This document shows, in pieces, positions 11,495 to 53,783 of a DNA stretch of 64,000 nt (position 1 is its first letter; every line of letters begins with the position of its first letter). The translations under genes were made by a program, and so were the position numbers. Below the pieces are notes generated by a model. The model searched no databases, was not told where the DNA came from, and was given only the letters and a program-made list of their open reading frames with translations. This DNA is from Stutzerimonas stutzeri. Its GTDB lineage: Bacteria > Pseudomonadota > Gammaproteobacteria > Pseudomonadales > Pseudomonadaceae. The stretch spans positions 3,038,001-3,102,000 of the forward strand of contig CP077641.1 in NCBI GenBank assembly GCA_019056435.1, given 5' to 3'.

Positions 11495-11602
11495 ATGGCT
11501 TCACCGTCTCAACCCAAAAGCTTGATCTTCGATCTGGAAGTCGCCCTTCGCAAAGCCGATCAGCCCGACCGCATCTTCATGCTTGGTGGGTCTGCTTCTT
11601 AG
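11495..11602 (+). pseudogene. Truncated 5' fragment of the RecQ-UvrD helicase gene
   Basis: The first ~29 codons (MASPSQPKSLIFDLEVA, then KADQPDRIFM) are nearly the same as the start of the intact gene at 19560. Similarity then stops, and a TAG closes the frame after 35 residues. This is a duplication end-point, not a functional gene. Confidence 0.85.
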
Positions 11603-22500: not shown

Positions 22501-24696
22501 GCACGTGCTGCTCTATCTGCACAAGCAAGACGTACTGACCCTCAACCACGGCATGACGGTGATGCGCCGGGCCATGACCATCGAGGTCGAGCCGGACAAG
22601 CGCACCGGGTACCTCAAAGACGATTACCAGCGCCTGGATGAGCACTACCGCGAGAAGCGCATTCAGGTGCACGTCATGCGCGAGTATGCCGAGGTTGCAC
22701 TGGGCTCGATGCGCGAAGCCCGCGACCTGGTGAAGCACTACTTCACCCTGGCCAAGCAGGAGTTCATTCGGCGCTATTTCGCCGGCCGCGAGGAGGTGCT
22801 CAAGCTTGCCACCAGCGAAGAGTCCTGGCGCAGCATCGTTGAGCGATTGAGCGCCGCGCAGCGCGTGATCGTCGAAGACGAACATGACATGAACCGACTC
22901 GTACTCGCTGGCCCCGGCTCGGGCAAGACACGCGTCATCGTTCACCGCGTTGCCTATCTGCTACGCGTACGCCGGGTTCCGGCACGCTGCATCGTCGCGC
23001 TGACCTTCAACCGGCATGCGGCCAACGAGATCAAGCAGCGCTTGCTGAGGCTGGTGGGCCCCGATGCATTTGGGGTCAACGTCATGACCTATCACCGCAT
23101 GGCCATGCGCCTGACGGGTACCCGCTTCGAACGCGGCGAAACGGTCGAGGAGGGGCGGCTCGCCCAGGTGATGAGCGAGGCCGTCGAGCTGCTCGAAGGC
23201 AAGCGTCAGGTCGAGGGCGAGGATGACCTGCGCGAACAGTTGATGCGCGGGTACCGCTACATCCTGGTCGACGAGTACCAGGACATCGACGATCTGCAGT
23301 ACCGCCTGGTCAGTGCCCTGGCAGGGCGCAAGGCCGAGGAAGAAGGGCGCCTGTGCATCTTGGCGGTGGGCGACGACGACCAGAACATCTACGCCTGGCG
23401 CGACACCAACAACCGGTACATCGAGCGCTTTCGCGAAGATTATTCGGCCTCGACCAGCTATCTGGTCGACAACTACCGCTCCAGTGCCCGCATCATCGAA
23501 GCCGCCAACAGCGTCATTGGCCGTAACCCGGATCGCCTGAAACAGGATCACCCCATTCAGATCGACACGGCCCGGCGCGAACGTCCAAAAGGTGGCAACT
23601 GGGAGAGCCTGGATCCGGAGCGGGCAGGGCGGGTGCTGCGTTTGAGGGTCGACACCGAAGACGATGCACGCGCGAACGTTCAGGCCCAAGCGGCAATGGC
23701 CGAGCTGCAACGGCTGCTCACGCTGGACACCGAGGATTGGCAGGGCTGCGCCGTACTGGCGCGCACCCACCAGTACCTGCTGCCGGTTCAGGCCTGGTGT
23801 GAGGCGCACGGCGTGCCGTACTGCCTGGCCGCGGACAAGGACAGTGCATTGCCGCTGACCGCCCAACGGGGCTTCGTGCGCGCGGTCGAAGGGCTAAGCG
23901 CGATCACCGAACCGGTCACGGCGGCCGAAGCATGGTCGCGTCTGAGCGAGACGGCCTTGGCGCCGGATTGGTACGGCTTCTTCATGACCGCATTCGACCA
24001 GCTTACTGCCGAGTTCGGGCAATGCCCCTCGCCGCCCACACGCTGATCGACTGGCTATACGACTACGCACGCGAGCTGCGCCAACAACCAAAGCAGGGGC
24101 TGTACCTGGGCACGGTGCACTCGGCCAAGGGGCTGGAGTTTCGGCATGTGGTTGTCCTGGACGGTGGCTGGTCCTTGCAGCCCGACACCCTGAGCGACGA
24201 GCGCCGACTCTATTACGTGGGCATGACCCGCGCCGAGCAAACGCTGACGCTGTGTGAATTTCCGAGCGGCAATCCTTTCGCACGCAACCTGACCGAAGAG
24301 GTGATGGGGCGGACCTTCGCCGGCGAGTTCATGCCAGAACTCGAGAAGCGCTACCTGCAGCTCTCGCTCAAGGACATCGACCTGGATTTTGCTGGACGCC
24401 AGCCACCGAGCTCAGCGGTCCACAAAGCACTTGCAAGCCTCGAGCCGGGCGATCCCCTTACAATCAAGCCGCAGGACGACCGCTACCTGATCCTGGACGC
24501 CCACGATCGAGTCGTCGGACGCACCGCCAAGTCCTTCGAGCTTGACCTCGATGTCGAGCACTGCGAAGTGGCGGCGATCCTGGTACGCCATACCGATCGA
24601 TGTGATGAGCAGTACCGGGCTTGGCACAAGTGCGAGCAGTGGGAGTTGGTGGTGCCGAGGGTGTTCGGTAGATTAAAAATGATTATGGTCCGTTAA
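19560..24696 (+). CDS. Giant DnaQ-like exonuclease / RecQ / UvrD helicase fusion, frameshifted
   Basis: Repaired length is 1712 aa. Residues ~10-150 look like a DEDD-type 3'-5' exonuclease (IFDLEVA, LGHNVIDHD). A RecQ core follows (TGGGKSLCYQLP about 326, FDEAHCLSKWGADF about 428, FTATAKPDV, FGMGVDKSDIR, QEAGRAGRDQG). The C-terminal third is a UvrD/Rep helicase (AGPGSGKTRVIVHR, VDEYQDIDDLQ, GDDDQNIYAWRD, GTVHSAKGLEF, YYVGMTRAEQ). One base is missing in the G4 run 22319-22322 and one in the C4 run 24025-24028. Such fusions occur in accessory and defence DNA. The role is probably processing of foreign DNA. Confidence 0.85.
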
Positions 24697-24720
24697 ATTG
24701 CCGCGATAGAGAATCATTAA

Positions 24721-25311
24721 ATGGTAAAAACTATGCAGAGCAACGGTGAGAATCCCCACAATCCTTTGACAAGTTTTGGTGTGCTAGTAATCTCGCTAAG
24801 TTTTGCATTGATCCCTTACCTATTTACGGTAGCGATGTATGGAACGTTTAACTCTGAGAGGTGGCGCGCGGCGGATGCGTCATTGTCGATTATGGTTCTT
24901 GTTCTGTTTGCTGCGTTTGGTATTGTTTTCTACATGATCAGAGAGCGCAACGTAGATGTGAGTACTGTATTGCGTGGCTATGTTGATATTCATGAGCTCG
25001 CGGATAAGCCTTACCTCGATTATTTATTGTCTCATTATGGTTATGTAGCGTCCTCTGCGACGTTCTGCGCAGCGATTGTATACGTTTCAAAGGCAATGCT
25101 CCCCGTGGCTGGAGTAAGTGTCACGTCCTTATTTATGTCTTTCACTGTCTGTTTTGTTTTCCTTGTTTACGGGGTGGTTTTTGCTAAGGCCGTTTGGGGC
25201 GCCCGTGAGAGGCCTTGGCCTGCCTTTTTGATGTTTCTGCCGATGATTGTATTGGACGTGACGCTCATGCAGATGGCGATTGAAGGAGCTAGCAGTTTGT
25301 ATAGCTCTTAG
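24721..25311 (+). CDS. Small multi-span membrane protein
   Basis: The 196-aa protein has four to five hydrophobic segments (FGVLVISLSFALIPYLF, SIMVLVLFAAFGIVFYM, a pair around 105-150, and AFLMFLPMIVLDVTLM). No catalytic motif is visible. Lower GC than the helicase gene 24 bp upstream suggests a separate origin, although the spacing allows co-transcription. Function unknown. A membrane effector in a helicase-linked defence unit is one possibility. Confidence 0.65.
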   Translation: MVKTMQSNGENPHNPLTSFGVLVISLSFALIPYLFTVAMYGTFNSERWRAADASLSIMVLVLFAAFGIVFYMIRERNVDVSTVLRGYVDIHELADKPYLDYLLSHYGYVASSATFCAAIVYVSKAMLPVAGVSVTSLFMSFTVCFVFLVYGVVFAKAVWGARERPWPAFLMFLPMIVLDVTLMQMAIEGASSLYSS

Positions 25312-25331
25312 CGAAGAGCCAGACTATTTAG

Positions 25332-25426
25332 AGCTCGTACTAAGGCCTTGTATTCATCGCTCCGCTGCGCCGCCGCTTAGTAGTGAGGCGGCGAGTGGCC
25401 AATACGCTTATCACTCAGTACGAGCT
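25332..25426. repeat. Nested inverted repeats (about 95-nt foldback)
   Basis: Three pairs nest in order: AGCTCGTACT (25332-25341) with AGTACGAGCT (25417-25426), GTATT (25350-25354) with AATAC (25401-25405), and CGCCGCC (25368-25374) with GGCGGCG (25387-25393). The rest of 25312-25631 has no gene. The element could be a folded RNA, a transcription stop or a recombination substrate. Confidence 0.55.
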
Positions 25427-25631
25427 GGAACGTGGCAATCATATGCCGGGCTACCAGAAAAACACCGGCGCAAGACGAGTGTCTGCGATCGCAATAACAG
25501 AAGTGGCCAACAATTCAGATTTCTGTTCAGCTGTTTGGGCCCAAGCCTGTCTTCGGCACGGGACAAACGCCGGGCAGGTCTGGTGCACCGACCACGGACG
25601 TGGCGCCCTGGCATCAGCCGACCGCAAGAAG

Positions 25632-25737
25632 GCACGATGGAAGCCCAAAGAGGCCCAAAGGGGCGAGACGGTCTCCGGCTCGGTTCACGACAGCGCGGCC
25701 CGGCAGCGCGTGACGGTGCCAAGGCCTCACACGGCCC
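25632..25737 (+). repeat. Boundary repeat copy C
   Basis: About 100 bp, from GCACGATGGAAGCCC through GGGGCGAGACGGTCTCCGGC to AGGCCTCACAC. It is closely similar to copy D at 26285-26381 and more distantly related to copies A and B (shared CGAGAC...CTCCG...GGCTCG...CCCGGC pattern). It forms the left edge of the DUF2750 insert. Confidence 0.85.
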
Positions 25738-25825
25738 TAAACATTCGAACCTCTAGATCCTAAATTGCATCGAACGCAACATAATTACGACGATTTCGGT
25801 CGAAAAATAAGGAGCGCCCGGTTCA

Positions 25826-26223
25826 ATGAGCACTCGTAAGATCAACCAAAAGCAAATTGAAGCAGTATTGGCACTTCCCGCGGCAAAGCGCTATGCGCAT
25901 TTCCTTAAGCTCGTGGCAGATTGGCAGGAGCTTTGGGGGCTTTATGACGACGGTTGGGCTATGGCTGCGACTGACTCTGGCGAACCTGTATTTCCCATGT
26001 GGCCCGCGGAAGAATATGCGGCCCGTTGTATTGGGGAACAATGGGTGGGGTATTTGCCTAAAAGTTCTCGCTTGATGAGCTGCAAAGCGAGCTTTTGCCC
26101 AAGTTAAAAAAGGATGGAGTCCTCCCTGGAATCTTTTTCCTTCCGTCGGATAAGGGGATGACACCTACGGTTGATGAATTGCTGAACGATCTAAAAGCAG
26201 AACTGGATAAGTACTCTGATTGA
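25826..26223 (+). CDS. DUF2750-family protein, frameshifted
   Basis: The first frame reads KQIEAVLALPAAKRYAHF, ADWQELWGLYDDGWA and FPMWPAEEYA, all typical of DUF2750. The second frame continues LDELQSELLPKLKKDGV...DELLNDLKAELDK. One A added to the A4 run at 26060-26063 gives 132 aa, the family size. The biochemical role is unknown. The gene sits alone between direct repeats C and D, like an inserted cargo unit. Confidence 0.8.
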
Positions 26224-26284
26224 GACGCTTTGCCTACCGAGTACATACTTTCGTGGCAGATTCGTCAGCCCACCGCAGGGAGGG

Positions 26285-26381
26285 GCACGATGGAAGCCCG
26301 AAGGGGCGAGACGGTCTCCGGCTCGCTCCACGACAGCGCGGCCCGGCAGCGCCGGGCGACGCCCAGGCCTCACACCGTGCC
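26285..26381 (+). repeat. Boundary repeat copy D
   Basis: Direct repeat of copy C with most positions shared, including the hairpin GCCCGGC-AGC-GCCGGGC followed by GACGCC. Its right end overlaps the last few codons of the convergent DUF2075 gene. Confidence 0.85.
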
Positions 26382-28244
26382 TAGGGGCCCAGCCGCCAAT
26401 CCGGCCCTGAAATACTCGGCCGTCTCCGCGTCCGTGCAATACACATAACACCCCTTCATGCCGCGGGTCATGAGCGTGCGATAGGTGTTCTTGATGATCA
26501 GGTCCGCTTCCTGCCTCGCCAGGTCCGGATGTGTCTTCATGAGCTTCTTGTATCCGCGGATGGAACGGTCCTGCTTGTCGCGCTGGTCGGGCGAGGTCAC
26601 GACACGGCCGTTACGCACGATCAGGTCCGGCCCGATGATCACGCCGATGTAGTCGACCTCCAGGCCCTGGCAGGTGTGGATGCACCCGACCTGCTCGATG
26701 GATTCCTCGGCAATGATCCAGAGGCTGCCGTCCTGGCTGAGGTTCCACTGCCGGCGGTAGTCACCGATCACGATGTCGTCGGCCAACTGATCCTTCTTGC
26801 TGCGCCAGGGCCAACAATAGCCGGCCACGACGCGCGCCTTGTTCTGGTGGTTGCGTGCCTCGATCGCCGCATGCAGCGCCTCGGGCGTATCGAATACCCG
26901 GAAGTCATACTCGCCGGCATCGAGCCGATCATTGGCGGTCGGCCGGATGTCGAGCACGTTGTCGAGCCACGCGAGATAGCCATCCGACCCGCTGCAACGG
27001 AACTGGGAGGCCAGGTCGTATTCCTCGACGAGGGCACCCTTGGCCTCGGCAAACTGCCGGATCGCCTGCTTGCTGCCCACGTCACTGAGGGTGACGCGCT
27101 GGTCCTCGTCGATGAAGAAGACCGTGCACTTCGAGGCCCCGATCAGCTCCTTGACCTGGTGCTCGCCGAGGTTGGCATACAAGCCGCTCTTCTCGTTGAG
27201 GCGATGGGCCTCATCGACGATGAGCACGTCGAAGACGTTGGGCTCGGCATCGACGAAGGCGCCGGACCCGGTAAACATGTGCGAGAACCGCGAGCGGGTG
27301 ATGGACCCGACGAGCTTGGTCTCGTAGACCTTTCGGGGCGCGGCGTTCTTCGACACGTACTTGCCCACCAACCCCTGCGAGGTGAGCTGCACCAGCAGGT
27401 TGATGGCCAGCACCGTCTTGCCGGTACCGGGGCCACCCTCGACGATGACGACTCGGGGCTGATCGGACGAAGCCGCCTTCGCCGCTGCAAGCGCGGCCTC
27501 GTAAACCTCCTTCTGGTCGTCGATCAGGACGAACTCAGGGTTGCCCTTCAGCAGGCCCGACAACGAATCGGCGAGCGCCTTGGACGGACGGATCCGACCG
27601 TTGGCCAGCTCGTACAGGACGGCCTTGTCGTCACCGGACTTGATGTACTTCCTGATGAAGGCCCGAAGCTGCTCGAGCTCGTCCTTGCCCTTGAGAAAGA
27701 GTGGGGCCTTCTCGATGTAGGGCTGGTAGTGCGCGGCGTCGATCACGCCGTCGCGGACGTAGTTGTGAAGGTAGGCGCAGGGCCGGACGGCAATGCTCTG
27801 GTCGTATACCGCCTCGTTGAAGCCTTCCAGCAGGGAGGCGTAGGACCAGGCCTGGTACGAGGGATGCACCTTCTCGCGAAGTCCCTTGCCGAGGGCGGTC
27901 ACCACGATGGCATCCTTGGCCGTGGCCTTCGCGGTGCTCCATTGCTTGAGTTCGACGAGCACGGCGTTCTTGCCGCCCAGCTCGTCACGGCCGGTGAGCG
28001 TGAAGTCGATGCGCTTGGAGGACTGCGGGATATGGAGCTCGATGGCGAGTCCCGTGTCGCCCGGCAACGCTTAGTCGCGTAGCACCTTGGCCATGTAGCC
28101 GAGCGACCCTTTCCACGACTCGATCTCCGATCGTCCGACCCGCTTGCCGGTGCGGGCAGTAAAGTGGGCGAGGATCACGTCCTCGATGTCGTCGTTGTCG
28201 GTGTCCTTGAGGAACTGCTGCTTGGTAGCTTCGTAGACGATCAC
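26370..28244 (-). CDS. DUF2075 (Schlafen-type) helicase with N-terminal nuclease-like domain, in-frame stop
   Basis: Walker A is EGGPGTGKTVLAINLL, Walker B is FDVLIVDEAHRL, and later motifs are FFIDEDQRV, EQVGCIHTCQGLEVDYIGV and YRTLMTRGMKGCYVY. The N-terminal half has the IDFTLTG...AVLVELKQW order of PD-(D/E)xK-like domains. Conserved family sequence extends upstream of the long open frame to a GTG at 28244 (VIVYEATKQQFL), preceded by AAGGA, but a TAA at codon 58 (28073-28071) interrupts it. This is either a base error or a true nonsense change. The gene follows the MazG-like gene by 21 bp and is probably co-transcribed. Confidence 0.8.
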
Positions 28245-28265
28245 GCGGTCTTCCTTGGCCGGTTT

Positions 28266-28649
28266 TTAAAGTTGGTCGTACTTCTTGCTCGTGTTGCGCG
28301 CCTTGTCGACGGGGTACTTCTGCCCATTGAGCCGAAGCTTGTGTTGCACGGCCTCGTCGAGGTCCACGCCCAGGACATCGGCCAGCCGCACCAGGTACAT
28401 CATCACGTCGGCCAGCTCGTCGCGCACCGCCTGGGCTGTTTCGGGGCGCTGCGCCGCGGTGATGGATTGTTCCTCGGTCATCCATTGGAAGATCTCGAGG
28501 AGTTCGCCCGTCTCGCCCGCGAGGGCCATGGCCAGGTTCTTTGGCGAGTGGAACTGCGCCCAGTTGCGCGCCTCGGCGAACTGTTCGAGCGCTTCGGCCA
28601 GTGGCGCTACATCAACGAGCGAGGAGGGCGGCGAGGCATCGATCGGCAC
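28266..28649 (-). CDS. MazG-like nucleotide pyrophosphohydrolase
   Basis: The 127-aa all-alpha NTP-PPase has the metal-binding pattern (ALAGETGELLEIFQW, about residues 44-58, and RDELADVMMYLVRLAD, about 80-95). The tail KARNTSKKYDQL is common to RS21-C6/dCTPase-like members. These enzymes hydrolyse (d)NTPs to monophosphates. The GTG start at 28649 is uncertain: a TCG-GCA-AAC frame extends upstream and would reach an ATG if one base were removed. It lies directly upstream of the DUF2075 helicase, so nucleotide depletion could be linked to DNA attack. Confidence 0.8.
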   Translation of the reverse strand: MPIDASPPSSLVDVAPLAEALEQFAEARNWAQFHSPKNLAMALAGETGELLEIFQWMTEEQSITAAQRPETAQAVRDELADVMMYLVRLADVLGVDLDEAVQHKLRLNGQKYPVDKARNTSKKYDQL

Positions 28650-28816
28650 GAGGTTGTCCTTGGTGGCGGCAGGGTTTGCCGATCATACTTGAGCGCAAGG
28701 CCGATGTAAGTGCGGCACCGGCCCGCAACCATCGAGCCAGGGCCTGCGAAGCGCCTGATGCGTTTGCTGCGGCTTGAAGGGTCCCAGCATTACACAACAT
28801 AAGGAAGTGGTCGTTT

Positions 28817-29952
28817 ATGTCCCAGCTTTCCCAGCTCCGCAGCCCCGCCGCCGTGCAGGCTGCCATCGACGAGTTCGTGCAACTCGGTCGCACCAAGTTT
28901 CTGGAACGCTACGGGTTCGGGAAGTCGCGCGACTTTCTCGTGCGCGACCCGAAGACCGGTACCGACTGCGATTCGAAGGCCATCGCCGGCGTCGCCTATG
29001 GCAAGCAGTTCCCTAGCCAAGGCCCGCTGACGGCCGATAGCTTCTCGGGCGGCGAGGCGACCGTGGTCCCCGCACTGACGAACCTCGGGTTCACGATCAT
29101 TCGCATCGGCGAGGACTGGTCGGAAGCCGAGGTCGAGGCCACGGTACGCGACTACTTCGAGATGCTGCGCGCCGAGGCGGCTGGCGCGGCCTACAACAAG
29201 TCCGAGCACAACCAGGCCCTGAGGCGCGTGCTCAATGGCCGTAGCAAGTCCTCGGTCGAGCTCAAGCACCAGAACATCAGCGCCGTGCTCGACGCGCTGG
29301 GGCTGCCCTACATCAACGGCTACAAGCCCCGGGGCAACAGCCAACTGCTGCTACGTAAATCCGTACAAGCGTATGTCCTGAAGCACCAGCAGGCGGTCGG
29401 CGCCATCGTCGATGCTTTGGAGGAAGTAAAGCTCCCGAGCGAAAAGACCTACCTGGCAGCGCTCGTCGAAGCGCCCAAGCGCGAGGCGTTTGTCCCTGGC
29501 CCCGCCAAGGTGCGAGAGCGCATGCCGCGCAAGTTCGACTTTGCCGCGCGGGACGAGGCCAACCGCAAGCTGGGCCGGGCAGGGGGCAGTGGGTGATCGA
29601 GTTCGAGCAACAGCGCTTGACGGCAGCGGGCCATCCCGAGCTTTTCCAACGGTTGGATTGGGTATCGGACACCCAGGGCGACGGTGCAGGCTTCGACATC
29701 CTGTCGTTCGTAGACGAGATGCAGCACCGCTTCATCGAGGTGAAGACCACCAACGGTGGCGTGGGCTCATCGTTTCTCGTCAGCCACAACGAACTCGAGT
29801 TTTCAAAGGAAGTTGGCGGGCAGTTCTACCTGTACCGGGTCTTCCAGTTCAGGCAGGGGCCGCGACTGTTTACCCTCACCGGCGACCTGGCCCGGCATGT
29901 CCACCTCAAGCCCACCGATTACCGGGCGAGCTTTCAGAGCGTTGTAGGATAG
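28817..29952 (+). CDS. ScoMcrA-head domain fused to DUF3883, frameshifted
   Basis: Residues 1-90 form the same head domain as the type IV enzyme at 16829 (FLERYGFGKSRDF, DSKAIAGVAYGKQF). A helical middle leads to a C-terminal DUF3883 domain (GDGAGFDILSF, FIEVKTTNGG, YRVFQF), which resembles a PD-(D/E)xK nuclease core (D...EVK). The two parts are in different frames. One G added to the G5 run at 29582-29586 gives 378 aa. The decayed paralogue at 47 kb has the repaired frame here. It is divergent from the MazG-DUF2075 pair. Confidence 0.75.
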
Positions 29953-41118: not shown

Positions 41119-43030
41119 ATGATCGCGCGCCCACCATCCGAGCTTCCAAGCGACCTTTCAGCGTTCGTTGCTACGCACTTCGCTGGCCGAGGCCCTAATC
41201 CGGATCGGCTAATCGCCGAATCCTGGTACCGCAGCGTCTACGAGCACGGGCTCGATCCAGCTAAACGTGCCTCTCATGTTCAGCTCGAGCACCACGAGAT
41301 CCGCCTGCATCAAGAGGAGCACCATGACTTTCTGGCCATCGCGAGCCAGGGCGTGGAAGGGCTCGCGCGGCGCCTGAACCCGGCCGGTTTTGCGGTGCTG
41401 CTCAGTGATTGCCGCGGCATCACGCTTGATGCGCGACTGCCTGGGGAGCACAGCCCCTACGCGGACTCGGGGCTGGTGATTGGCAGTTGCTGGGACGAGT
41501 CGCTGGTGGGGACCAATGGCATCGGCACGGGGCTGGCGGCCGGCCAGCCACTGATCATCCACCGGGACGAGCATTTTCTCAGCAGCAACGCCGTGCTGAG
41601 TTGCTCGGTGGCACCGCTGTTCGATCCCCAGGGTGCATTGCTGGGCTGCCTCAATGCCTCGTGCCTCAACAGTGGCGGGCCGAAGCAGGCGCAGTACCTG
41701 ACGCTCCAGTTGGTAAGCCTGTACGCTCGACTCATTGAGAACGCCAGCTTCCGCCAGCGCTATGCCGGTTGCGTGATGCTGACCCTGGGTGGCGAAGCCG
41801 GCGACCTCGGCAACGAGCGTTTGCTGGCGGTGGATGCGGCGGGCCGAATTCTCGGAGCCAATCGCGCATCCTTTTTGATTGCCGGTCAAGGGATCTCGCT
41901 GCTGGGGGCGGACGTCCAGGATGTCCTGTCCGTGTCGCTGGATCAACTGATCGCCCTGACTCAGGGGGCCAGCGCAGTGCATCCTTGCGGCCAGCCGGCG
42001 GAGCGGTGTTGGAGGTCACGCTGCGTATGCCCGCCGCCGAGCGGTGCGCCCGGAACGAGCAGGGCGTGAGCGTGGTTCCGACAGAGCCGACGCTTGAGCA
42101 CCTGGCAGGGGAGGACCCCAACCTGCAACGCTCCGTCCAGAAGCTGCGGCGCGTGCTTGATCGCGACATTTCGCTGTTGCTAACAGGCGAGACGGGTACC
42201 GGAAAGGAAGCGTTTGCGCGGGCGATCCATCAGGCTAGCATCCGCGCCAGGGGGCCCTTCGTCGCGCTCAATTGCGCCGCGATCCCGGAGTCGCTGATCG
42301 AGAGCGAGCTGTTCGGCTACCGTGCCGGGACCTTTACCGGCGCCAGCCGGCAGGGGATGAAAGGCAAGCTGGAGCAGGCCAATGGCGGGACGCTGTTTCT
42401 CGACGAGATCGGCGATATGCCGGCGCATTTGCAGACGCGGCTGCTACGCGTGCTGGCCGAACGGGAACTGGAATACCGCTGGGCGCCGCGACACCGGTAG
42501 CGCTGAACGTGCAGCTTGTGTGCGCGACGCACCGCGACCTGCCTGCCATGGTGGCTGCCGGCGAGTTTCGTGAGGACCTGTATTACCGGCTCAACGGATT
42601 GGCGATCAGGCTGCCCGCCTTGCGCGATCGGGCGGATCGTATGGCGCTTATCCGTCGTGTTTTGCTACGTGAGGCTGGGGGCGAGCATGTTGAACTGGCC
42701 ACTGATGCCATGGAGAGCCTGGCCGGTTATGGGTGGCCTGGCAACGTGCGCCAGCTCATCAACGTGCTGCGCTGCGCCGTCGCGCTGGCTGACGACGGGA
42801 TGATTGGTCTCGACTGCCTGCCGCAGGAGGTCCTGTCTGTGCGCTCGGAGGGGGCATCCGTTGCACATTCGTTGGTGACGACCCGGGACGCTGCCGAAGC
42901 GGCGCATCTGCGGGCGACACTCGAGCTGCACCGCGGCAACGTTACGTTGGCGGCGCGTTCGCTTGGCATCAACCGCGCCACCCTTTATCGCAAGCTGCAC
43001 CGTTATGGCCTGGCGGCGTTGCGCAAATAA
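41119..43030 (+). CDS. AcoR-type sigma-54 activator, frameshifted
   Basis: The N-terminal GAF-type sensor ([16 protein letters not shown], then [19 protein letters not shown]) is typical of AcoR-like regulators. The AAA+ core has [37 protein letters not shown] and WPGNVRQL. The C-terminal Fis HTH is [20 protein letters not shown]. One base is missing near 41994-41996 and another at 42472-42473; repair gives 637 aa. The ATG at 41119 has GGAG 6 nt upstream. It converges on the aldA/PQQ-alcohol dehydrogenase operon, whose promoter is sigma-54-type, and is the probable activator. Confidence 0.85.
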
Positions 43031-43083
43031 TGCCTCGCAGGTGACTTAGTCTGCTCGGCGGGGCGCCCGCTCGCCCAAATAGC

Positions 43084-43108
43084 AAGAACCCCGCCGGGGC
43101 GGGTTCTT
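43084..43108. terminator. Bidirectional terminator between acoR-like gene and aldA
   Basis: AAGAACCC (43084-43091) pairs with GGGTTCTT (43101-43108) around a GC-rich centre. The hairpin is flanked by A on one side and T on the other, and lies between two convergent stop codons. Confidence 0.8.
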
Positions 43109-43123
43109 CGTCATCTAAGTCAC

Positions 43124-44560
43124 TCAGCTCTGTACATACACCGCATGGGTGTGAGTGTACTCGTACAGCCCATGCTTGCCGTCCGCACCGCCGATGCCGG
43201 ATTTGCGCACCCCGGCGTGGAAGCCCTGCATCGCCTCGAAGTTTTCGCGGTTGATGTAGGTCTCGCCGAAGTCCAGCCCGGCGGCGGCCTTCATCGCGGT
43301 GGAGAGGTCGCGGGTGTAGACCGAGGAGGTCAGGCCGTACTCGCAGTCGTTGGCTAGGGCAATGGCTTCGTCCAGGTCGTCGATGATCTGCACCGGCAGC
43401 ACCGGGCCGAAGACTTCCTTGCGCATGATTTCCATGTCCTGCGAGCAGTTGGCGAGCAGCGTCGGCTGGTAGTGGAAGCCCTTGCCCAGGTCCGCCACGG
43501 CGCCGCCGGTGACGAGCTGTGCACCCTGGCTCTGAGCGGTGCGGACCATCTGCTCGACCTTGCGCAGCCCTGCCTCGTTGATCAGCGGGCCCATCTCCAC
43601 ATCCGCCTGGGCGATGGGGTCGCCATAGCGCGTCTCGGCCAGGGCACCGGCGATGCGTTCGATGAACTGCTCGGCCACGCCGCGCTGCACATAGACACGC
43701 TCGGCGCAGTTGCACACCTGCCCGGTGTTGATGATCCGCGACGCGCGAATCGCCGTGACGGCGAGGTCCAGGTCCGCATCGTTCATGACGATCGCCGGAG
43801 CCTTGCCGCCCAGCTCGAGGTTAAGCTTGGTGACGTTCTGCGCCGCGGCGGCCATGATCCGCTGGCCGGTGCCGACGCTGCCGGTAAAGCTGATCATGTC
43901 GATCTGGTCGCTGGTGGTCAGCGCGCTGCCAACGCCCGCGCCGCTGCCGCAGACCACGTTGAACACGCCCTTGGGTAGGTCGGTCTCGGCCACCAGCTTG
44001 GCGAATTCGAAGCAGTTGTTCGGCGTCTCCTCGCTGGGTTTGATGACGATGGTGTTGCCGGTGACCAGCGCTGGCGCCATCTTCCGGGCGATCAGGAAGA
44101 AGGGGAAGTTCCACGGCAGAATGCCGGCCACCACGCCCAGCGGTTTGCGGAACAGGAAGATGTTCTCGCCCGGGCGGTCGCTGGTGATGATCTCGCCCTC
44201 GATACGCCGCGCCCATTCGGCCATGTAGTCGAGGTAGTCGGCAGTGAAGTTGACTTCGATCAGCGCCAGGCTCTGGATCTTGCCGCCTTCCTCGGTGATG
44301 ACGCGGGCCAGCCGCCCGGCATTCTGGCGGATCTTGCTGGCGATGGCGCGCAGGTAACCGGCGCGCTCGATGGCAGGCTTCTGGCTCCAGCTTTTCTGCG
44401 CGGCGCGGGCTGCCGCGATGGCGCGTTCGGCGGTGGCCGCATCGGATTCGGGCACGCGGGAGAGCACCGCGCCCGTTGCCGGATTGCGCACCTCAATGAG
44501 GTTGTCGCAGGCGACGAAGGCGCCGTCGATGTAGTTCTGGTAAGTGGTTGCGTCAGTCAT
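43124..44560 (-). CDS. aldA: Lactaldehyde/glycolaldehyde dehydrogenase AldA-like
   Basis: The 478-aa protein matches E. coli AldA closely in length and motifs: TADYLDYMAEWARRIEGEI, ILPWNFPFFLIARKMAPAL, KPSEETPNN, LELGGKAPAIV, catalytic INTGQVCNCAERVYV, and C-terminal FGETYINRENFEAMQGFHAG. AldA oxidises small hydroxy-aldehydes with NAD. The start at 44560 is supported by GGAG 7 nt upstream. It follows the alcohol dehydrogenase gene by 16 bp, so alcohol to aldehyde (periplasm) and aldehyde to acid (cytosol) are probably linked. Confidence 0.9.
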   Translation of the reverse strand: MTDATTYQNYIDGAFVACDNLIEVRNPATGAVLSRVPESDAATAERAIAAARAAQKSWSQKPAIERAGYLRAIASKIRQNAGRLARVITEEGGKIQSLALIEVNFTADYLDYMAEWARRIEGEIITSDRPGENIFLFRKPLGVVAGILPWNFPFFLIARKMAPALVTGNTIVIKPSEETPNNCFEFAKLVAETDLPKGVFNVVCGSGAGVGSALTTSDQIDMISFTGSVGTGQRIMAAAAQNVTKLNLELGGKAPAIVMNDADLDLAVTAIRASRIINTGQVCNCAERVYVQRGVAEQFIERIAGALAETRYGDPIAQADVEMGPLINEAGLRKVEQMVRTAQSQGAQLVTGGAVADLGKGFHYQPTLLANCSQDMEIMRKEVFGPVLPVQIIDDLDEAIALANDCEYGLTSSVYTRDLSTAMKAAAGLDFGETYINRENFEAMQGFHAGVRKSGIGGADGKHGLYEYTHTHAVYVQS

Positions 44561-44576: not shown

Positions 44577-46733
44577 TCAATTGCTGGCAGTTTTCTGGGT
44601 CGGCTGCGGCAGGTCGTCAGGGCCATGCTCGAGGCGGTCGTGGGCACGCTTGATCAGGTACTGGTGGATCTGCTCCATCTGCTCCTGGTTGAACGCTTCG
44701 GCAAAGGAGGGCATGCCATCCGGGATGCGTGCGCCGTAGAGGATGCCGAGGAACTGCTCATGCTTTTCCGGCGTGAGCATGCGCAGGTCCGGCAGCACGC
44801 CGCCGCTGACCGCGTGGATGCCGTGGCACTGGGAGCAATAGCCGTCGTAGAGCTTGGCGCCGGCCTCGACGGTGGCCGCATCGGCGGTCAGTGGCGGCGG
44901 CTTGGGCGCATCCTCACGCGGCGCCGGTTCCTGCAGTTCGGCGGTGCCGCCGAGCTTGTAGGTGAGCACCTGGGCGTAGGGCTGAACGCCGGCGCGCAGC
45001 GACAGGGCGCCGGCGAAGGTGGAGAAGGCGCCGCCCCAGCCTGCCATGAAGGTCACGTACTGCTCGCCGTCCACGCTGTAGGTAACGGGCGCCGCCATCA
45101 CGCCGCTCGCGGCGGGTTGCTCCCAGAGCTTCTTACCGGTGTCGGCGGCGTAGGCGATGACGCGACCGTCGGCGCTGCCTTCGAACACCAGGTTGCCTGC
45201 AGTGGTCAGCGTGCCGCCGTTGAAGATGGTGACGTAGGGCACTTCCCAGGCCTGCTCTTGCTTGACCGGATCCCAGGCGATCAGCTTGCCGGACCAGGTG
45301 TCGGCGTACTTGCCGAGGCCTTCCGGGTCCTCGGGCATCATCCCGGTCTTGAGGCCCAGCTGGTACATGCTCTTGAATTTGTTGCGCGTCGGCTTATCCG
45401 GCACGTGCTCGTACCACGCCGACATGATGTGCGCCGGGATGTAGACGAGGCCCGTGTTCGGGTTATAGGACATGGGGTGCCAGTCATGAGCGCCCCAGAA
45501 GCCCGGCTGGACCAGCTTGGCCTTCTTTTCACCTTTCCAGTAGGCCGCCGCTTCGTCGTCGACGATGGGCCGGCCAGTCTTCAGATCGACGCCCTTGGCC
45601 CAGTTAATCGGCACGATGTTTTCAGCCGAGAGCAGCTCGCCGGTGGCGCGGTCGATGACGTAGAAGAAGCCGTTCTTCGGCGCCTGCATCATCACCTTGC
45701 GCTGTTTGCCCTCTATCTCGAGGTCAGCCAGGATCATGTGCTGCGTGGCGGTGTAGTCCCAGGCATCGCCCGGCGTGGTCTGGTAGTGCCAGACGTATTC
45801 GCCGGTGTCGGCGTTGACCGCGACGATGGAGGACAGGAACAGGTTGTCGCCCTTGCCCTCGCTGCGCCAGATCGGGTCCCACAGCGAGCCGTTGCCGACT
45901 CCGATGTAGAGCAGGTTCAGCTCCGGGTCGTAGGCGAAGGAGTCCCAGGCAGTGCCGCCGCCGCCCTGTTCGACGAAGGCGTGGCCATGCCAAGTCTTCT
46001 TGGCGATCTCCATGCCCTTGCCTTCGGCGGGTTTGTCGGGATCGCCCGGTACGGTGAAGAAGCGCCAGGCCTGCTTGCCGGTCTCGGCGTCGTAGGCGGT
46101 GACGTACCCGCGCACACCGAACTCGGCCCCGCCGTTGCCGATCACCACCTTGCCGTTCACCACACGCGGTGCGCCGGTGATGGAATAACTGCGGGCCTTG
46201 TCGTAGCGGGTGTCGACCGACCAGACACGCTCACCGGTCTTGGCGTCGATAGCTTCCAGGCGCCCGTCGAGGACGCCCACGTAGACCTTGCCCTTCCACA
46301 CGGCAACGCCGCGGTTGATCGCATCGCAGCAGGCCTCACCGGCGCGGGAACGGTCGGACTGGGGGTCGTACTTCCAGATTTCTTTACCGGTACGCGCATC
46401 GAGCGCGTAGACGATGGAGAAGGGGCCGGTGGTGTACATCACGCCGTCAACCACGATGGGCGTGGCTTCGACGCCGCGGTCGATGTCGAGCTTGTAGCTC
46501 CAGGCCAGGCCGAGTTCGTCGACGTTGGCGTCGGTGATCTTCTCAAGCGGGCTATAGCGCTGCTCGCCATAGTCGCGGCCGTGGCTCATCCAGTTGCCGG
46601 GCTCGGCGTCGGCATTGGCGATGCGCTGGCCGTCCACATCGGCGGCATACAGCGGCAGGGACAGTAGCGCGGCTAGGCTGGCGCCAAGCAGAGCGGTGGG
46701 CCGTCGGCCCGAACAGGGATCGAACTGATTCAT
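44577..46733 (-). CDS. PQQ- and heme-c-dependent alcohol dehydrogenase (quinohemoprotein)
   Basis: The 718-aa protein has an N-terminal signal peptide (LLGASLAALLSLPLYAAD), an eight-bladed PQQ propeller with tryptophan-docking repeats (DARTGKEIWKYDP, DAKTGERVWSVD, DAETGKQAWRF), the adjacent-Cys disulfide (EACCDAINRG), and a C-terminal cytochrome c domain with CSQCH. This is the type II ADH layout: alcohol oxidation in the periplasm with electrons passed to heme. It is the first gene of the operon with aldA, behind the sigma-54 promoter at 46792-46807. Confidence 0.92.
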   Translation of the reverse strand: MNQFDPCSGRRPTALLGASLAALLSLPLYAADVDGQRIANADAEPGNWMSHGRDYGEQRYSPLEKITDANVDELGLAWSYKLDIDRGVEATPIVVDGVMYTTGPFSIVYALDARTGKEIWKYDPQSDRSRAGEACCDAINRGVAVWKGKVYVGVLDGRLEAIDAKTGERVWSVDTRYDKARSYSITGAPRVVNGKVVIGNGGAEFGVRGYVTAYDAETGKQAWRFFTVPGDPDKPAEGKGMEIAKKTWHGHAFVEQGGGGTAWDSFAYDPELNLLYIGVGNGSLWDPIWRSEGKGDNLFLSSIVAVNADTGEYVWHYQTTPGDAWDYTATQHMILADLEIEGKQRKVMMQAPKNGFFYVIDRATGELLSAENIVPINWAKGVDLKTGRPIVDDEAAAYWKGEKKAKLVQPGFWGAHDWHPMSYNPNTGLVYIPAHIMSAWYEHVPDKPTRNKFKSMYQLGLKTGMMPEDPEGLGKYADTWSGKLIAWDPVKQEQAWEVPYVTIFNGGTLTTAGNLVFEGSADGRVIAYAADTGKKLWEQPAASGVMAAPVTYSVDGEQYVTFMAGWGGAFSTFAGALSLRAGVQPYAQVLTYKLGGTAELQEPAPREDAPKPPPLTADAATVEAGAKLYDGYCSQCHGIHAVSGGVLPDLRMLTPEKHEQFLGILYGARIPDGMPSFAEAFNQEQMEQIHQYLIKRAHDRLEHGPDDLPQPTQKTASN

Positions 46734-46882: not shown

Positions 46883-46934
46883 TGTCGCACCTGGGCCGTT
46901 GCACGGCTGCGACACCTGTCGCGTCTCTGCGACA
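46883..46934 (-). promoter_or_regulatory. Palindromic upstream activating sites
   Basis: TGTCGC-N6-GCGACA (46917-46934) is a perfect palindrome. A second, wider pair TGTCGC (46883-46888) / GCGACA (46909-46914) lies next to it. The distance of 80-140 bp from the sigma-54 promoter is right for enhancer sites of the AcoR-like activator. Confidence 0.65.
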
Positions 46935-46960
46935 GGGGGGCAGGCGGGGGCGCGATCACA

Positions 46961-47237
46961 GGTTGGTCGACTGGCTACACGATTACGCGCGCTAGCGGCG
47001 CCAACAACCGAAGCAGGGGCTGTATCTGCGCAAGGTGTACTCGGCCAGGGTTCGGGGTTTCGGGCGTTTGTCCCGAGTTACACCGAGATGCGCAACCGGA
47101 TGCCGAACAAGTTTGACTTGCCGGGCCAGACGAATCCAACTGCGAGCAGGCCGAGCAGGCCGAGCAGGCCGAGCAGGGGATCAGTGGGTGATTGAGTTCA
47201 GTTCACGCAACAGCGCTGATTGACAGCGGGCGATCTG
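46961..47237 (+). pseudogene. Scar of fused UvrD-helicase and DUF3883 gene fragments
   Basis: Bases 46961-47060 align with the UvrD part of the helicase gene (24041-24146: GACTGGCTA, CGCCAACAACC, AAGCAGGGGCTGTA, ACTCGGCCA), with a TAG in frame. Bases ~47061-47237 align with the DUF3883 gene (29485-29641: GGCGTTTGTCCC, ATGCCG..CAAGTT, CAGTGGGTGAT). They include four 9-bp units of CCGAGCAGG type (47142-47177). It is the remains of a former copy of the island after an internal deletion. The rest of 46734-47351 has no gene. Confidence 0.8.
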
Positions 47238-47351
47238 GGTGTCGCTGGAGCGAGGGGAGTTCTCGAACTCGCGATCTGCTGCATCCTAAATGCTCGCTCA
47301 AGAATGCAATGGTCATTGCGAACAGTAGTGAACGCGAAGGTTAGGCGTCGC

Positions 47352-48245
47352 TTACATATGGTGATGGTCCAGCAGAAAGTCTACGAATACCCGAACCCGC
47401 GCGGGCATTGCAGCGCCCCCAATGAAGACTGCATGGATCGGTTCCCTGTCGCCGGGGTTCCAAGCTTCGAGCAGCGGCACCAGATCGCCACGCTGCAGAT
47501 CCTTCGCCACGCTGAATTCGCCGATACGAGCGATACCGGCACCAACCCGGGCCAGTTGCGCCAGCGCCTCACCACTGCTGCATTCGATGTTGCCGCTGAC
47601 CTTCACGGAAATCTCTTTCCCGTTGCGTATGAATGGCCAGTTGGGTTCGGCACGGCGGAAGTTGAAGCGCAGGCAGTTGTGTCGTAGCAGGTCTTCCGGT
47701 TCCTCAGGTATGCCGTGGCGCTGAAGATACTCGGGCGAGGCCACTACGACTTGGCCGGTGTCGCCGATCTTGCGCGCGGTGAGCGGGCTGTCAGGCAGGC
47801 GGCCAAAACGTACTGCTACGTCGGCCTGGCCAGCAAGAATATCGACTACCTCGTCGCCTAGGGTGAGGTCGACAACAATGTTCGGATAGCGGGCGCTGAA
47901 TGCTGCTACCAAGGGAACAATGGCAAGTCGCCCATGGCCGAGGGCGGCGCTGACCCGTAAGCGGCCTCTGGGCATGCCCTGGTCGGCGATGGCTTCTTCG
48001 ACCTCAGCCATGTCAACCAGAATTCGCCGGGCGCCACGCAGGTAAGCCTCGCCCTCTGCCGTAAGGGTGATCGCTCGGGTGGTCCGCAATAACAGGCGGG
48101 TTCCAAGACGTTGTTCGGTGCGCGCGATAATTCGGCTGACCGCTGAGGGCGTTAGCCCCAATGCACGCGCGGCGGCCGACAGGCTGCCTTCCTGCGCTAC
48201 CGTGGCGAATACAGCCATTTCGCCTGATCTGCCGTTGAAGTCCAT
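47352..48245 (-). CDS. LysR-family regulator
   Basis: The 297-aa LTTR has an HTH at residues 8-66 (EMAVFATVAQEGSLSAAARALG, LTPSAVSRIIARTEQRLG) and an effector domain (GRLRVSAALGHGRLAIVPLV, LARVGAGIARIGEFSVAKDL). It is divergent from an MFS exporter at 48341 across 95 bp, the usual layout of a LysR protein controlling its neighbour. Confidence 0.88.
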   Translation of the reverse strand: MDFNGRSGEMAVFATVAQEGSLSAAARALGLTPSAVSRIIARTEQRLGTRLLLRTTRAITLTAEGEAYLRGARRILVDMAEVEEAIADQGMPRGRLRVSAALGHGRLAIVPLVAAFSARYPNIVVDLTLGDEVVDILAGQADVAVRFGRLPDSPLTARKIGDTGQVVVASPEYLQRHGIPEEPEDLLRHNCLRFNFRRAEPNWPFIRNGKEISVKVSGNIECSSGEALAQLARVGAGIARIGEFSVAKDLQRGDLVPLLEAWNPGDREPIHAVFIGGAAMPARVRVFVDFLLDHHHM

Positions 48246-48340
48246 CTGTGATCCCTACGCAAAGGTGTTTGCCAGAGAACGCTATCTACCGCCTGAATGT
48301 GCCAGATCGTAGCATTGACGGCACAGATGAGGAGCCTTCT

Positions 48341-49504
48341 ATGCGTATCAATCCACCACTTGTGGCACTAGCCATCGGTGCCTTTGGCATCGGCGTCACC
48401 GAATTCGCCCCGATGGGCATGTTGCCGGGTATCGCTACGGACCTCGGTGTTTCCGTTCCTGCTGCAGGTCTGTTGGTCAGTGCTTACGCAATGGGAGTGC
48501 TGCTCGGCGCGCCGCTGATGACCCTGACCACCGGCAGGGTTCCTCGGCGCTATCTGCTTATAGGACTCATGGCGATCTTTACCCTAGGCAATTTAATGTC
48601 GGCCCTGGCGACCGATTACTACAGCCTGATGATCGCCAGGGTGGTGACCTCACTGAACCACGGTGCGTTCTTCGGCGTTGGCTCCATCGTCGCCGCCAGC
48701 GTGGTTGTCCCGGAGAAACGTGCCGGGGCAGTGGCGGCGATGTTCATGGGCCTGACCCTGGCGACTATCGGCGGAGTCCCATTGGCCGCCTGGTTTGGCG
48801 AACTGTTCGGGTGGCGCACCGCGTTTTGGGGAATTACCGGCCTCGGCGTGCTAGCCATGATCGCTTTGTGGTACGCCCTGCCCAACATGCCAGCGCCGCA
48901 ACGCGTCGGTTTACTGGCCGAAATTCGGGTACTGGGCCGCGGCTCGGTATTGGGCGCTTTGGCTCTGACCGTGGTCGGCTCGGGTGCAATGTTTACCGTA
49001 TTCACTTACATCGCGCCCATCCTCAGCAGCGAGACCCACGCGTCCGCTGCCTTCATCACCGCCATGCTGGTGCTGTTTGGGGTGGGGCTGACGCTGGGCA
49101 ACATGTGGGGCGGCAAGTCCGCCGATCGCTCGATCGACCGCACCCTGATCGTTTCCCTGAGTGTGCTGATTCTTGTCTTGCTGGGGTTCACCGTGCTGAT
49201 GCGCTGGCCGCTGTCGGCTGCCGTGGCGATTCTAATTTGGGGTATTGCCAGCTTTGCCCTGGTGCCTCCGCTGCAAATGCGCGTTATGGAAGTGGCCAAG
49301 GACGCGCCCAATTTGGCCTCGGCAGTGAACATCGGTGCCTTCAACCTCGGTAACGCTATTGGTGCGGCGTTGGGCGGCGCGGTGATCAATGCGGGCCTAG
49401 GCTATCCTGCGGTTTCACTAGCCGGAGCCGTGATGGCCGCGCTCGGATTGCTGATGGTACTGGTCTTTGCGTTGCGCTCTAGAGTTGCGGCGGCGGCTGC
49501 GTAA
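48341..49504 (+). CDS. MFS transporter, DHA1 family (AraJ/YdhP-like)
   Basis: The 387-aa protein has twelve predicted membrane spans. The first helix AIGAFGIGVTEFAPMGMLPGIA and the motif A region GAPLMTLTTGRVPRRYLL are typical of the AraJ/YdhP-like drug:H+ antiporter subgroup. It is an inner-membrane exporter of unknown substrate. The ATG at 48341 is chosen over an upstream one because GGAG precedes it at 7 nt. It is probably controlled by the divergent LysR protein. Confidence 0.88.
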   Translation: MRINPPLVALAIGAFGIGVTEFAPMGMLPGIATDLGVSVPAAGLLVSAYAMGVLLGAPLMTLTTGRVPRRYLLIGLMAIFTLGNLMSALATDYYSLMIARVVTSLNHGAFFGVGSIVAASVVVPEKRAGAVAAMFMGLTLATIGGVPLAAWFGELFGWRTAFWGITGLGVLAMIALWYALPNMPAPQRVGLLAEIRVLGRGSVLGALALTVVGSGAMFTVFTYIAPILSSETHASAAFITAMLVLFGVGLTLGNMWGGKSADRSIDRTLIVSLSVLILVLLGFTVLMRWPLSAAVAILIWGIASFALVPPLQMRVMEVAKDAPNLASAVNIGAFNLGNAIGAALGGAVINAGLGYPAVSLAGAVMAALGLLMVLVFALRSRVAAAAA

Positions 49505-51626: not shown

Positions 51627-52075
51627 TCCTCCTTGAGAAACGTCAGTCGCGCTGTCGGACCGACGCTTGTCGTCTGCGTCCGGTAGTGGGATGCGTTGCC
51701 AGGGTCAGCGACAAGCACTCGGGCGGCTATCTTCGGTTTCGAGCACATCTATCGCGAGGGCGCTGCGTTCAGCAAGGCCGACGTCCAGCTGGTGAACCTG
51801 TGCCAGTGGCGAATACACGCACGGCACACCAGCGGGACCCGATGGCCGGTGACGCCTCCACCAGCGCTGCGCTCTGCCCAACCGGCGTGTACCGAGTGCT
51901 GGTCATTCCAACTCTTGCTCGATCGATATTTTGACGATGTCAAAAACGCGGGCTCTCATGAAGACAACGTTCCTGCCATGCTTCCGAACTCATTCGACGG
52001 CAGCCGCCGGGGCACCGTGTCCAGCCATGCGCTTGCGAGTGGGGGCGTCCAACGGTACGAAGGGGCCAACGGCAA
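51627..52075. other. Gene-free region
   Basis: No gene is supported. A frame reading FGFEHIYREGAAFSKADVQL (near 51735-51795) looks protein-like but has no start and no family I recognise. It may be a relic. Confidence 0.4.
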
Positions 52076-53380
52076 TCAGGCAAGGCGCTGGGCCTGGTCC
52101 GCGATGATCACCTTGGTGATTGCACGCAAACAGCGCAACTCCCCGGCAAGCGTTGGTTTGAGCGCAGGCTGTGAGCTGCCAAGTTGCTGGTGGGCTCGTT
52201 CGGTTGCTTCGTAAAGGCTGCCTGCCTCTTTCATTACGGCATTGCGAAGCCGGTCGACCATGGCACCGGCCGTTGCGGCCTTGATCCCCATCCTCTGGCC
52301 TGCCTCGAGCAGGTCCGACCGCCCGATGTCCTGCAGCCGTGCCGTCTGACCGATCGGCCAGGCTAGTGTGCAGCCCTGAGGCCATCCATCCCGATCGAAT
52401 GCTCGTGTCTCGTAAACGGCAGTACTGAGCAGGTCGTAGAAGGGTGCTAAATCGACACCGTCATGATTGATGAGAAAGCTCAGGTTCTTGAGGTGCGCAT
52501 CCGTATTGCCTACCAGCACGTTGAAGATCAGCCATTGAAAAAGCTGTGCGCGCGCAATCGCGGGTGCTTTACATATATTGGCCAATCGGGCCAATTGCTC
52601 GACGCTGCGGGCGCTGTACTTGTAGGTTCGATCCAGGCCGAGCAGCTGGCAGGCATCGATGCTATGAAGGCGGCTCCAGCCATTGTCCTCGTTGCGCCGG
52701 TCGAAGCGCTGGATCAGGTAAACGGGCTGCGGGACGTAGCGGTGCTCAACGGGCGGCACGTTCAGTTTTGCCCGTGCGGCCAGGGTCATCACGAACCATT
52801 CGTTTATCACGGGGTGGGCGTACGAGAGATCAGGGTGATCGGGCTTGAGGATGTGCGTGGAGGCTGCACCGCCCTCGGGTTCCTGTAGGCCGCCGGGCCC
52901 CAGGATGACGGCGAGTTTGTGTTGTGCGCCGGCTAGAGACATCCGCTTCCGGGCTTCATGGGTGAGCGGGATGCTGGGCATCTGCTGGATCCGTCGCGAC
53001 AACGCCTCGTCGGGCAAAGGATGGGTTGCGTGAGGCGCCTGAGCGGTTCCCTGCGCAAGCAACGTCACCGAGCCAGCCGACTCCGCACCGTAGTGGGCCA
53101 GCAGCGCAAAAGCATCGTGGGCATCGAGGTGGGCCGAACCGGCGAGCAGGGTTCGCTGGCCTTCCTCGGGCAGCAGATTATCGAAGTACCATTGGACCGG
53201 ACGGCTGGTGGCACCATCGCGTTGCAGCCCTTCGACCAGCGGAATGCCCGGGCACAATGCGTAGGCACCCGGGTGTGTCAGCCATGGCCGGGAATACTCG
53301 AAGGCCCACAGGCCGTTCGCCTCGTGAAGGGTGCCGACAAGCTGGTCGTTAATCCAGGCCTGGAGCATGCGCGGCATCAA
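52076..53380 (-). CDS. hipA: HipA-family serine/threonine kinase toxin
   Basis: The 434-aa protein has the HipA N-subdomain (WYFDNLLPEEGQRTLLA), the couple of LAGAQHKLAVI and HILKPDHPDLSYAHPVINEWFVM, the catalytic loop NVLVGNTDAHLKNLSF and the metal-binding LAPFYDLLSTAVY. HipA kinases phosphorylate aminoacyl-tRNA synthetases and can induce growth arrest. It overlaps hipB by 4 bp, giving coupled translation and control by the operators at 53666-53783. Confidence 0.9.
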   Translation of the reverse strand: MMPRMLQAWINDQLVGTLHEANGLWAFEYSRPWLTHPGAYALCPGIPLVEGLQRDGATSRPVQWYFDNLLPEEGQRTLLAGSAHLDAHDAFALLAHYGAESAGSVTLLAQGTAQAPHATHPLPDEALSRRIQQMPSIPLTHEARKRMSLAGAQHKLAVILGPGGLQEPEGGAASTHILKPDHPDLSYAHPVINEWFVMTLAARAKLNVPPVEHRYVPQPVYLIQRFDRRNEDNGWSRLHSIDACQLLGLDRTYKYSARSVEQLARLANICKAPAIARAQLFQWLIFNVLVGNTDAHLKNLSFLINHDGVDLAPFYDLLSTAVYETRAFDRDGWPQGCTLAWPIGQTARLQDIGRSDLLEAGQRMGIKAATAGAMVDRLRNAVMKEAGSLYEATERAHQQLGSSQPALKPTLAGELRCLRAITKVIIADQAQRLA

Positions 53381-53658
53381 CGCGGCTCACTCTGGCGCGC
53401 CACGAGTTTTTTCATCTCGGCATCGTGTAGGGCCTTGGCTTGCTCCGGTATCTCGGCGGTGAGGCCAATGCCCAACTGCTCCAGCACTTGGAACAGCTTG
53501 CTCCACTGCACGGAGTCGTCACCGCGCTCGACCTTGCCCAGGAAGTTCTCGCTGACGCCTATCGTGCCGGCGGTATCGTCTTGGCGCAGGCCAAGTGTTT
53601 TGCGCGTAGCGCGTACGAGCGGGCCTATTTCTGATGCGGAGCCGAGGGTAACCTTCAT
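53377..53658 (-). CDS. hipB: HipB-family antitoxin and repressor
   Basis: The 93-aa Cro/CI-type HTH protein (LVRATRKTLGLRQDDTAGTIGVSENFLGKVERG, then VLEQLGIGL) starts at MKVTLGS. A longer frame upstream runs through the operators and is rejected. It neutralises HipA and represses the operon. Confidence 0.88.
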   Translation of the reverse strand: MKVTLGSASEIGPLVRATRKTLGLRQDDTAGTIGVSENFLGKVERGDDSVQWSKLFQVLEQLGIGLTAEIPEQAKALHDAEMKKLVARQSEPR

Positions 53659-53665
53659 CACTAAA

Positions 53666-53783
53666 ATCCTCATGGTCACGAGGATAATAATGCAACCGCC
53701 TGGAATCTCAAGTTTATCCTCACGACAGTGAGGATAATGAATTTCGAGTCGGTGGGTGGCGCTCAAACCTCACGAACGTGAGG
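53666..53783. promoter_or_regulatory. Three HipB-type palindromic operators
   Basis: O1: ATCCTC-N8-GAGGAT (53666-53685). O2: TTATCCTCAC-GACA-GTGAGGATAA (53714-53737), a perfect 10-bp inverted repeat. O3: CCTCAC-GAAC-GTGAGG (53768-53783). The TATCC/GGATA ends match the known E. coli HipB operator core. They lie 8-125 bp upstream of hipB. The following 53784-54061 holds no gene. Confidence 0.8.

Follow-up and report, generated by a model that had tools for sequence, protein, structure and literature searches.

The short stretch at 46957–47237 of the window (the whole 64,000-nucleotide stretch of Stutzerimonas stutzeri DNA analysed here) is probably what is left, long since dead, of a module of two genes, one for a RecQ-UvrD helicase fusion and one for a NOV_C protein; this second copy of the module, the fuller one lying 17 kb away, would have arrived beside the alcohol dehydrogenase gene exaA and subsequently been eroded by deletions. 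That the remnant is the scar of another copy of a helicase/DUF3883 module, as the original prediction had it, is well supported by sequence comparison, since it is collinear with the module and neutrally decayed. Loss in place of a whole module copy is likely; here the claim of an internal deletion draws support from the fusion, the decay and a natural deletion in a congener (G025), while the former presence of a whole island at this very position is something that we infer. The remnant and its immediate surroundings can be set out as follows.

44577–46733, minus strand: left neighbour, an exaA-type PQQ-dependent (quinoprotein) alcohol dehydrogenase gene in one open frame of 718 codons
46734–46941: region upstream of exaA, conserved in 11 congeners and ending just before the remnant
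46957–47062, plus strand: remnant piece 1, from the helicase portion of the RecQ-UvrD fusion gene (C-terminal part of UvrD), about codons 1495–1530, with one stop and a conserved helicase motif ruined
47063–47237, plus strand: remnant piece 2, part of the NOV_C/DUF3883 gene starting at about codon 223, with frame lost and with deletions and insertions
47143–47177, plus strand: 9-bp tandem repeat inside the remnant, 3.9 perfect copies
47349–49500: right neighbour, an accessory LysR-MFS cassette that occurs elsewhere in six congeners, where similarity begins at the cassette's lysR end

Within the window, BLASTN aligns 46957–47073 with 24037–24157 (98 of 121 columns identical, 81%; E 1.8e-24) and 47063–47235 with 29485–29635 (117 of 174 columns, 67%; E 1.9e-15), so that the two-piece similarity originally proposed for 46961–47237 is real, its stated limits being off by no more than a few bases. 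When the whole of the genome (4,733,426 bases) was searched, 40 matches were scored, namely the remnant itself, the two parent pieces (E 5.9e-25 and 9.2e-9) and 37 short matches of 16–38 bases (best E 1.1e-4), 32 of which fall on the 9-bp repeat; among these 40 the two pieces thus give the sole long matches besides self. Order and strand of the pieces are those of the window's island and of the module generally, and both the own-genome matches and the comparison with the nearest copies point to descent from the module genes. Nothing separates the two pieces, and one base at their junction fits both parents (as judged by eye); the fragment contains one stop in the parent's frame in the UvrD piece, two in the NOV_C piece (both after loss of frame) and the perfect repeat, which is absent from the three fuller copies aligned; direct join, internal stops and repeat were therefore all as first described. 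On neither side does homology to the module extend demonstrably further: the tail at 47236–47350, to the right of about 47237, scores 24.0 against shuffles with a median of 23.5 and a 95% point of 32.0, and the sequence to the left of 46957 scores 30.0 against 28.0 and 34.0, respectively. The fused fragment has no other copy in its own genome and was not found in 398 genomes of the family searched with the remnant, where the longer matches were module genes and the rest matches to the repeat; a search of plasmids with the remnant gave one 35-base match. A single match to the exact junction 18-mer was seen in viral contigs, and was taken as chance, being alike over 22 bases only.

The way in which the remnant has changed indicates loss of coding constraint. 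At columns where five fuller copies agree (those of the window island, G007, G012, G030 and G133), piece 1 has private changes at 6/30, 6/32 and 3/18 columns by codon position (20, 19 and 17%); for piece 2, where the agreement is that of the window island, G012 and G133, the corresponding figures are 9/42, 9/41 and 5/23 (21, 22 and 22%). The fuller copies vary mostly at codon position 3, to which 15 of 19 variable columns belong in piece 1 and 28 of 45 in piece 2. The degree of decay is alike in the two pieces, at 15/80 and 23/106. The inference of decay rests on these per-site rates, as the Fisher p-values compare columns that were selected differently. Taking together the even spread of changes over codon positions, the stops and the loss of frame, the remnant is to be regarded as a neutrally decayed, once-coding copy and a genuine pseudogene remnant, and it most likely yields no useful product.

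With 38 of 186 sites changed, the JC-corrected neutral distance of the remnant is about 0.24, which is comparable to the per-lineage silent divergence from G030 and G006 in the genes of the exa block (about 0.18–0.24), implying that decay began at about the time when the species of these two congeners split off; the scar would accordingly be old, roughly the age of that split. The values underlying this comparison, for genes picked by hand, are 0.29–0.30 for exaA, 0.32 for the aldehyde dehydrogenase and 0.34–0.35 for the regulator (against G030 and G006), and the dating is rough, because other real genes span 0.24 to about 0.65; pooled values, which include antisense frames, were set aside. 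In nine of the 11 congeners exaA shows 4D differences of 0.22–0.32 (loci L044 and L047, where the alignment was at 33% identity, were set aside).

Among the copies available, the nearest to the remnant is that of the window's own island. For piece 1 the identities are 79.8% to the window island, 78.8% to both G030 and G007 and 74.0% to G012, with nine others lower; for piece 2 they are 72.7% to the window island and 60.8% or less to 14 others, a comparison in which G007 and G030 have no place because their copies do not include the corresponding part of gene 2. The island departs from G012 and G133 alike at 16 columns, and of these the remnant agrees with the island at 12, with the other two at one and with none of them at three.

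The parent module is best seen in Pseudomonas linyingensis (G133, L085), where gene 1 is a single frame of 1712 codons in which a RecQ-type helicase (DEAD, Helicase_C) is joined to a UvrD-type helicase, and gene 2 has 378 codons and encodes a NOV_C domain (PF13020), which we take to be the former DUF3883; plasmid records name gene 2 DUF3883. The description of piece 1 as a UvrD fragment therefore stands insofar as it is a C-terminal part of the UvrD portion, but its parent is one RecQ-UvrD fusion gene. Of 13 distinct copies of gene 1 compared, ten align over at least 1698 of the 1712 codons in one frame, eight of these being stop-free within the match and two (V81 and G011) having one stop each; the match in G007 begins only at codon 370, and that in G025 (L120, 176–2914) has a natural in-frame internal deletion from codon 705 to codon 1501, leaving the RecQ half and the C-terminal end of UvrD. 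Both genes occur together in Stutzerimonas nitrititolerans, S. stutzeri V81, P. linyingensis and two further Pseudomonas species, and in Acinetobacter, Kluyvera and others the stretch fetched matches gene 2 but not gene 1. No match for the module was found in phages. The module query matches 1213 plasmid records, 1174 of them at 80–90% identity, and 26 of the 30 plasmid matches listed cover gene 2 (DUF3883) only; in the one record opened (NZ_CP047003.1; L127, 6020–7156), gene 2 lies between two copies of IS26 together with an aac(3)-IId gene.

In the window itself the module is represented by a fuller copy and by a further remnant, as follows.

11261–11586, plus strand: further module remnant, made up of the sequence preceding gene 1 and of the initial 92 bases of that gene, 8 of which are changed
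19224–24696, plus strand: gene 1 of the fuller copy (RecQ-UvrD fusion), in three frames
24697–28816: extra segment between the two island genes that carries a Schlafen-group-3 helicase gene and is missing from this place in four relatives
28817–29952, plus strand: gene 2 of the fuller copy (NOV_C/DUF3883), in two frames

The stretch before gene 1 at 19224–19379, which includes the TTTTGCTC octamer run, is a dispersed repeat, with short matches elsewhere in congeners, G038, G040, G023 and G050 among them; in G012 and G051 it occurs a second time, downstream of the module.

Spacing between the genes bears on the size of the deletion. The distance of 5.3 kb that was originally ascribed to the intact island is correct for the window but does not hold generally, as the genes are adjacent in G012, G133, V81 and BN417 (about 40–435 bases between matches); gaps of about 3.5 kb, 4.1 kb and more than 4 kb separate them in GOM6, the window and G007, respectively. 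From one fixed motif to another there are 1374 bases in G133, as against 1670 in G012 and 5404 in the window. Since the two genes are adjacent in four relatives, the lost middle could have been 1.3–1.6 kb (about 1.3 kb on the G133 arrangement and about 1.6 kb on that of G012), or else about 5.3 kb; the closest allele to the remnant, that of the window island, is of the spaced kind, and either size may apply. As to the frame changes of the window island, these may be real or may be sequencing errors, because other genes here look frame-broken too: 5/19 genes of G030 and 1/11 of G006 appear broken against the window genome, and 3/23 and 2/12 window genes against G030 and G006, respectively, while in the controls the counts are 0/15 (G006 against G030) and 2/16 (G030 against G006).

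The site at which the remnant lies is conserved on one side only. The exaA-type gene is followed by an aldehyde dehydrogenase gene, and the region upstream of exaA is matched, up to 46934–46941, in 11 others of the 56 genomes of the genus (the present one included in the 56). In eight of these 11 congeners the next gene is a divergent TonB-dependent receptor gene of 666–667 codons, the other three differing. Judged by eye, the flanks of G006 and G030 resemble the window up to about 46959, where the remnant starts, and a CAC common to flank and helicase sequence could be microhomology, although automatic alignment is not clear as to the likeness of the flanks. The only receptor match in the genome itself at E ≤ 1e-30 is in two frames at 4025367–4027357, some 940 kb away; it is 75–80% identical to the congeners' genes, which are themselves 90.9–97.4% identical to the gene of G006, so that the local receptor appears to have been lost in this lineage. 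Relocation of that receptor to 4026 kb was considered and is disfavoured by the same low identity; in the 1.2 kb upstream of the 4026-kb copy, only one 175-base stretch (68%) is matched in the G006 locus, about 7.4 kb beyond the exaA flank. On the right, about 110 bases separate the remnant from the LysR-MFS cassette, part of which is matched in 14 of 56 genomes (the present one included) and nearly all of it in six others; being an accessory cassette, it implies that the right flank is not original either. Immediately upstream of exaA, the conserved sequence at 46898–46937 contains an inverted repeat (by eye) and recurs in G030 beside sequence like 42560–43226 of the window; it is perhaps a candidate regulator site of alcohol oxidation genes.

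The suggestion that this locus may be a second docking site for the island finds no support in the relatives compared. None of the 11 congeners sharing the exaA flank has the module beside it, let alone a full island at this position (about 10–14 kb fetched beyond the flank), no exaA orthologue is present in the 28 loci that hold or flank module genes (there is one 37%-identical relative, in L122), and no island end was recognised at the scar when both sides were tested against shuffles. There is no tRNA gene in the 64-kb window.

The most probable course of events, then, is that a module resembling the window's own island came to lie next to exaA, in the place that the receptor gene occupies in most flank-sharing relatives, and that deletions whose joins have little or no homology then wore it down. 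The fusion is observed; the arrival and the path leading to the fusion are inferences. Erosion would have left about 35 codons of the helicase end directly joined to about 55 codons of the NOV_C gene, and this leftover would then have drifted free of coding constraint and grown its 9-bp repeat, both of which can be seen in the sequence. That an in-frame internal deletion of gene 1 arose independently in G025 supports erosion. What counts against an arrival of the module at exaA is its absence there from all 11 relatives, together with the fact that no module end is recognisable at the site; what counts against decay in place is that the decay is about as old as the split from species that keep the receptor there, so that it may have begun elsewhere. 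These same three observations (no module ends, no relative with the module beside exaA, and decay as old as a species split) would fit a different history, in which a short fragment, already fused and decayed, was brought in by illegitimate recombination or as filler during break repair, the whole module never having stood beside exaA. This is unlikely, though to be taken seriously; it needs an unseen donor with the same fused fragment, and none is present either in the genome itself or in the 398 family genomes.

Other origins are much less probable. Given that the remnant directly adjoins the LysR-MFS cassette, it might have come along with it, but in six congeners similarity to the cassette begins at 47349–47362 and the remnant is absent, making this very improbable. 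Had part of the window's present island been duplicated recently, this would account for that island being the nearest copy; such an origin is nonetheless hardly credible, as about 20% of sites are changed, evenly over codon positions, and the island differs from the G007 and G030 copies by only 1–2 bases over the same stretch. UvrD helicases do have motifs in common, but chance or a general likeness of such motifs can be given practically no weight: it is refuted by two DNA-level matches with E of 1e-24 and 1e-15 lying side by side, and no other helicase genes of the genome appear among the matches.

Returning to the preferred reading, that of an eroded second module copy, two remnants and a fuller copy of the module lie within 36 kb, and these three traces suggest turnover in a variable region. 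The remnant at 11261–11586 is 8.7% decayed, against about 20% for that at 46957–47237, which hints at separate events, the 92-base piece being short and the hint correspondingly weak; on this sequence evidence the region would thus have gained and lost the module more than once. Of the congeners with the exaA flank, G030 has the module 82 kb away, G049 carries it on a different contig, and in G006 about 675 bases survive from the module's left end. Window blocks at about 3.6–5.9 kb and from 61.5 kb onwards are common to G030 and G006, exaA lying between those blocks there too, and shorter pieces of the window are common to G012. The block at 51982–53737 lies to the right of exaA in the window and to its left in G030 (2173209–2174950), indicating rearrangement within the variable region. 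A C4 antisense RNA with a1/b1 targets (Rfam RF01695, RF03163) lies on the minus strand at 5689–5891; such elements are linked with phage immunity.

It is a general phenomenon that mobile defence-type genes leave pseudogene remnants in the variable regions of genomes, and the present case has the same character: a truncated, frame-broken, neutrally drifting leftover next to conserved genes, in a variable region that also holds a fuller copy. There is no essential difference, except that the present region has three traces of a single module within 36 kb. With PADLOC profiles the RecQ half of gene 1 gives DpdF (best E 1.3e-98), the UvrD half gives GajB (best E 3.8e-49) and the gene 2 protein gives the phage-defence candidate PDC-S36 (E 2.7e-105; NOV_C, PF13020, at 1.5e-20), and because of these profiles a defence role is likely, the module being probably an anti-phage or anti-plasmid defence cassette. 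It differs from each of the known systems, however. Unlike DpdF of the Dpd system, the RecQ half is fused to a UvrD helicase, and it misses the NCBIfam cut-off for DpdF (185.4 against 550 bits, for 19560–22364 of the window); unlike GajB of Gabija, the UvrD half is part of a fusion followed by a NOV_C gene, and no GajA is among the matches listed for ten window proteins; and gene 2 follows a RecQ-UvrD fusion gene here, while the PDC-S36 profile has no description. The combination of RecQ-UvrD fusion and NOV_C gene seems to be little described, no paper in the collection searched joining DUF3883, RecQ and UvrD. DUF3883 and defence are mentioned together in PMC3710099 and PMC10609329, and PMC10121019 concerns the repertoire of E. 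coli defence islands.

One further pattern may be mentioned as an incidental observation: the join in G025 at codon 1501, a frame change of the window copy at about codon 1491 and the start of the remnant at about codon 1495 all fall within ten codons. A more speculative and rather doubtful extension of the account would be that the region has taken in the RecQ-UvrD/NOV_C module at least three times and that it was repeatedly inactivated, with breaks clustered at codons 1491–1501 of gene 1; were that true, the module would be useful only briefly, or costly, and regularly killed at a preferred point. More generally, such remnants preserve a record of how defence-like cassettes come and go, and with two unequally decayed remnants and a fuller copy within 36 kb, the turnover of one module may be read from a single genome.
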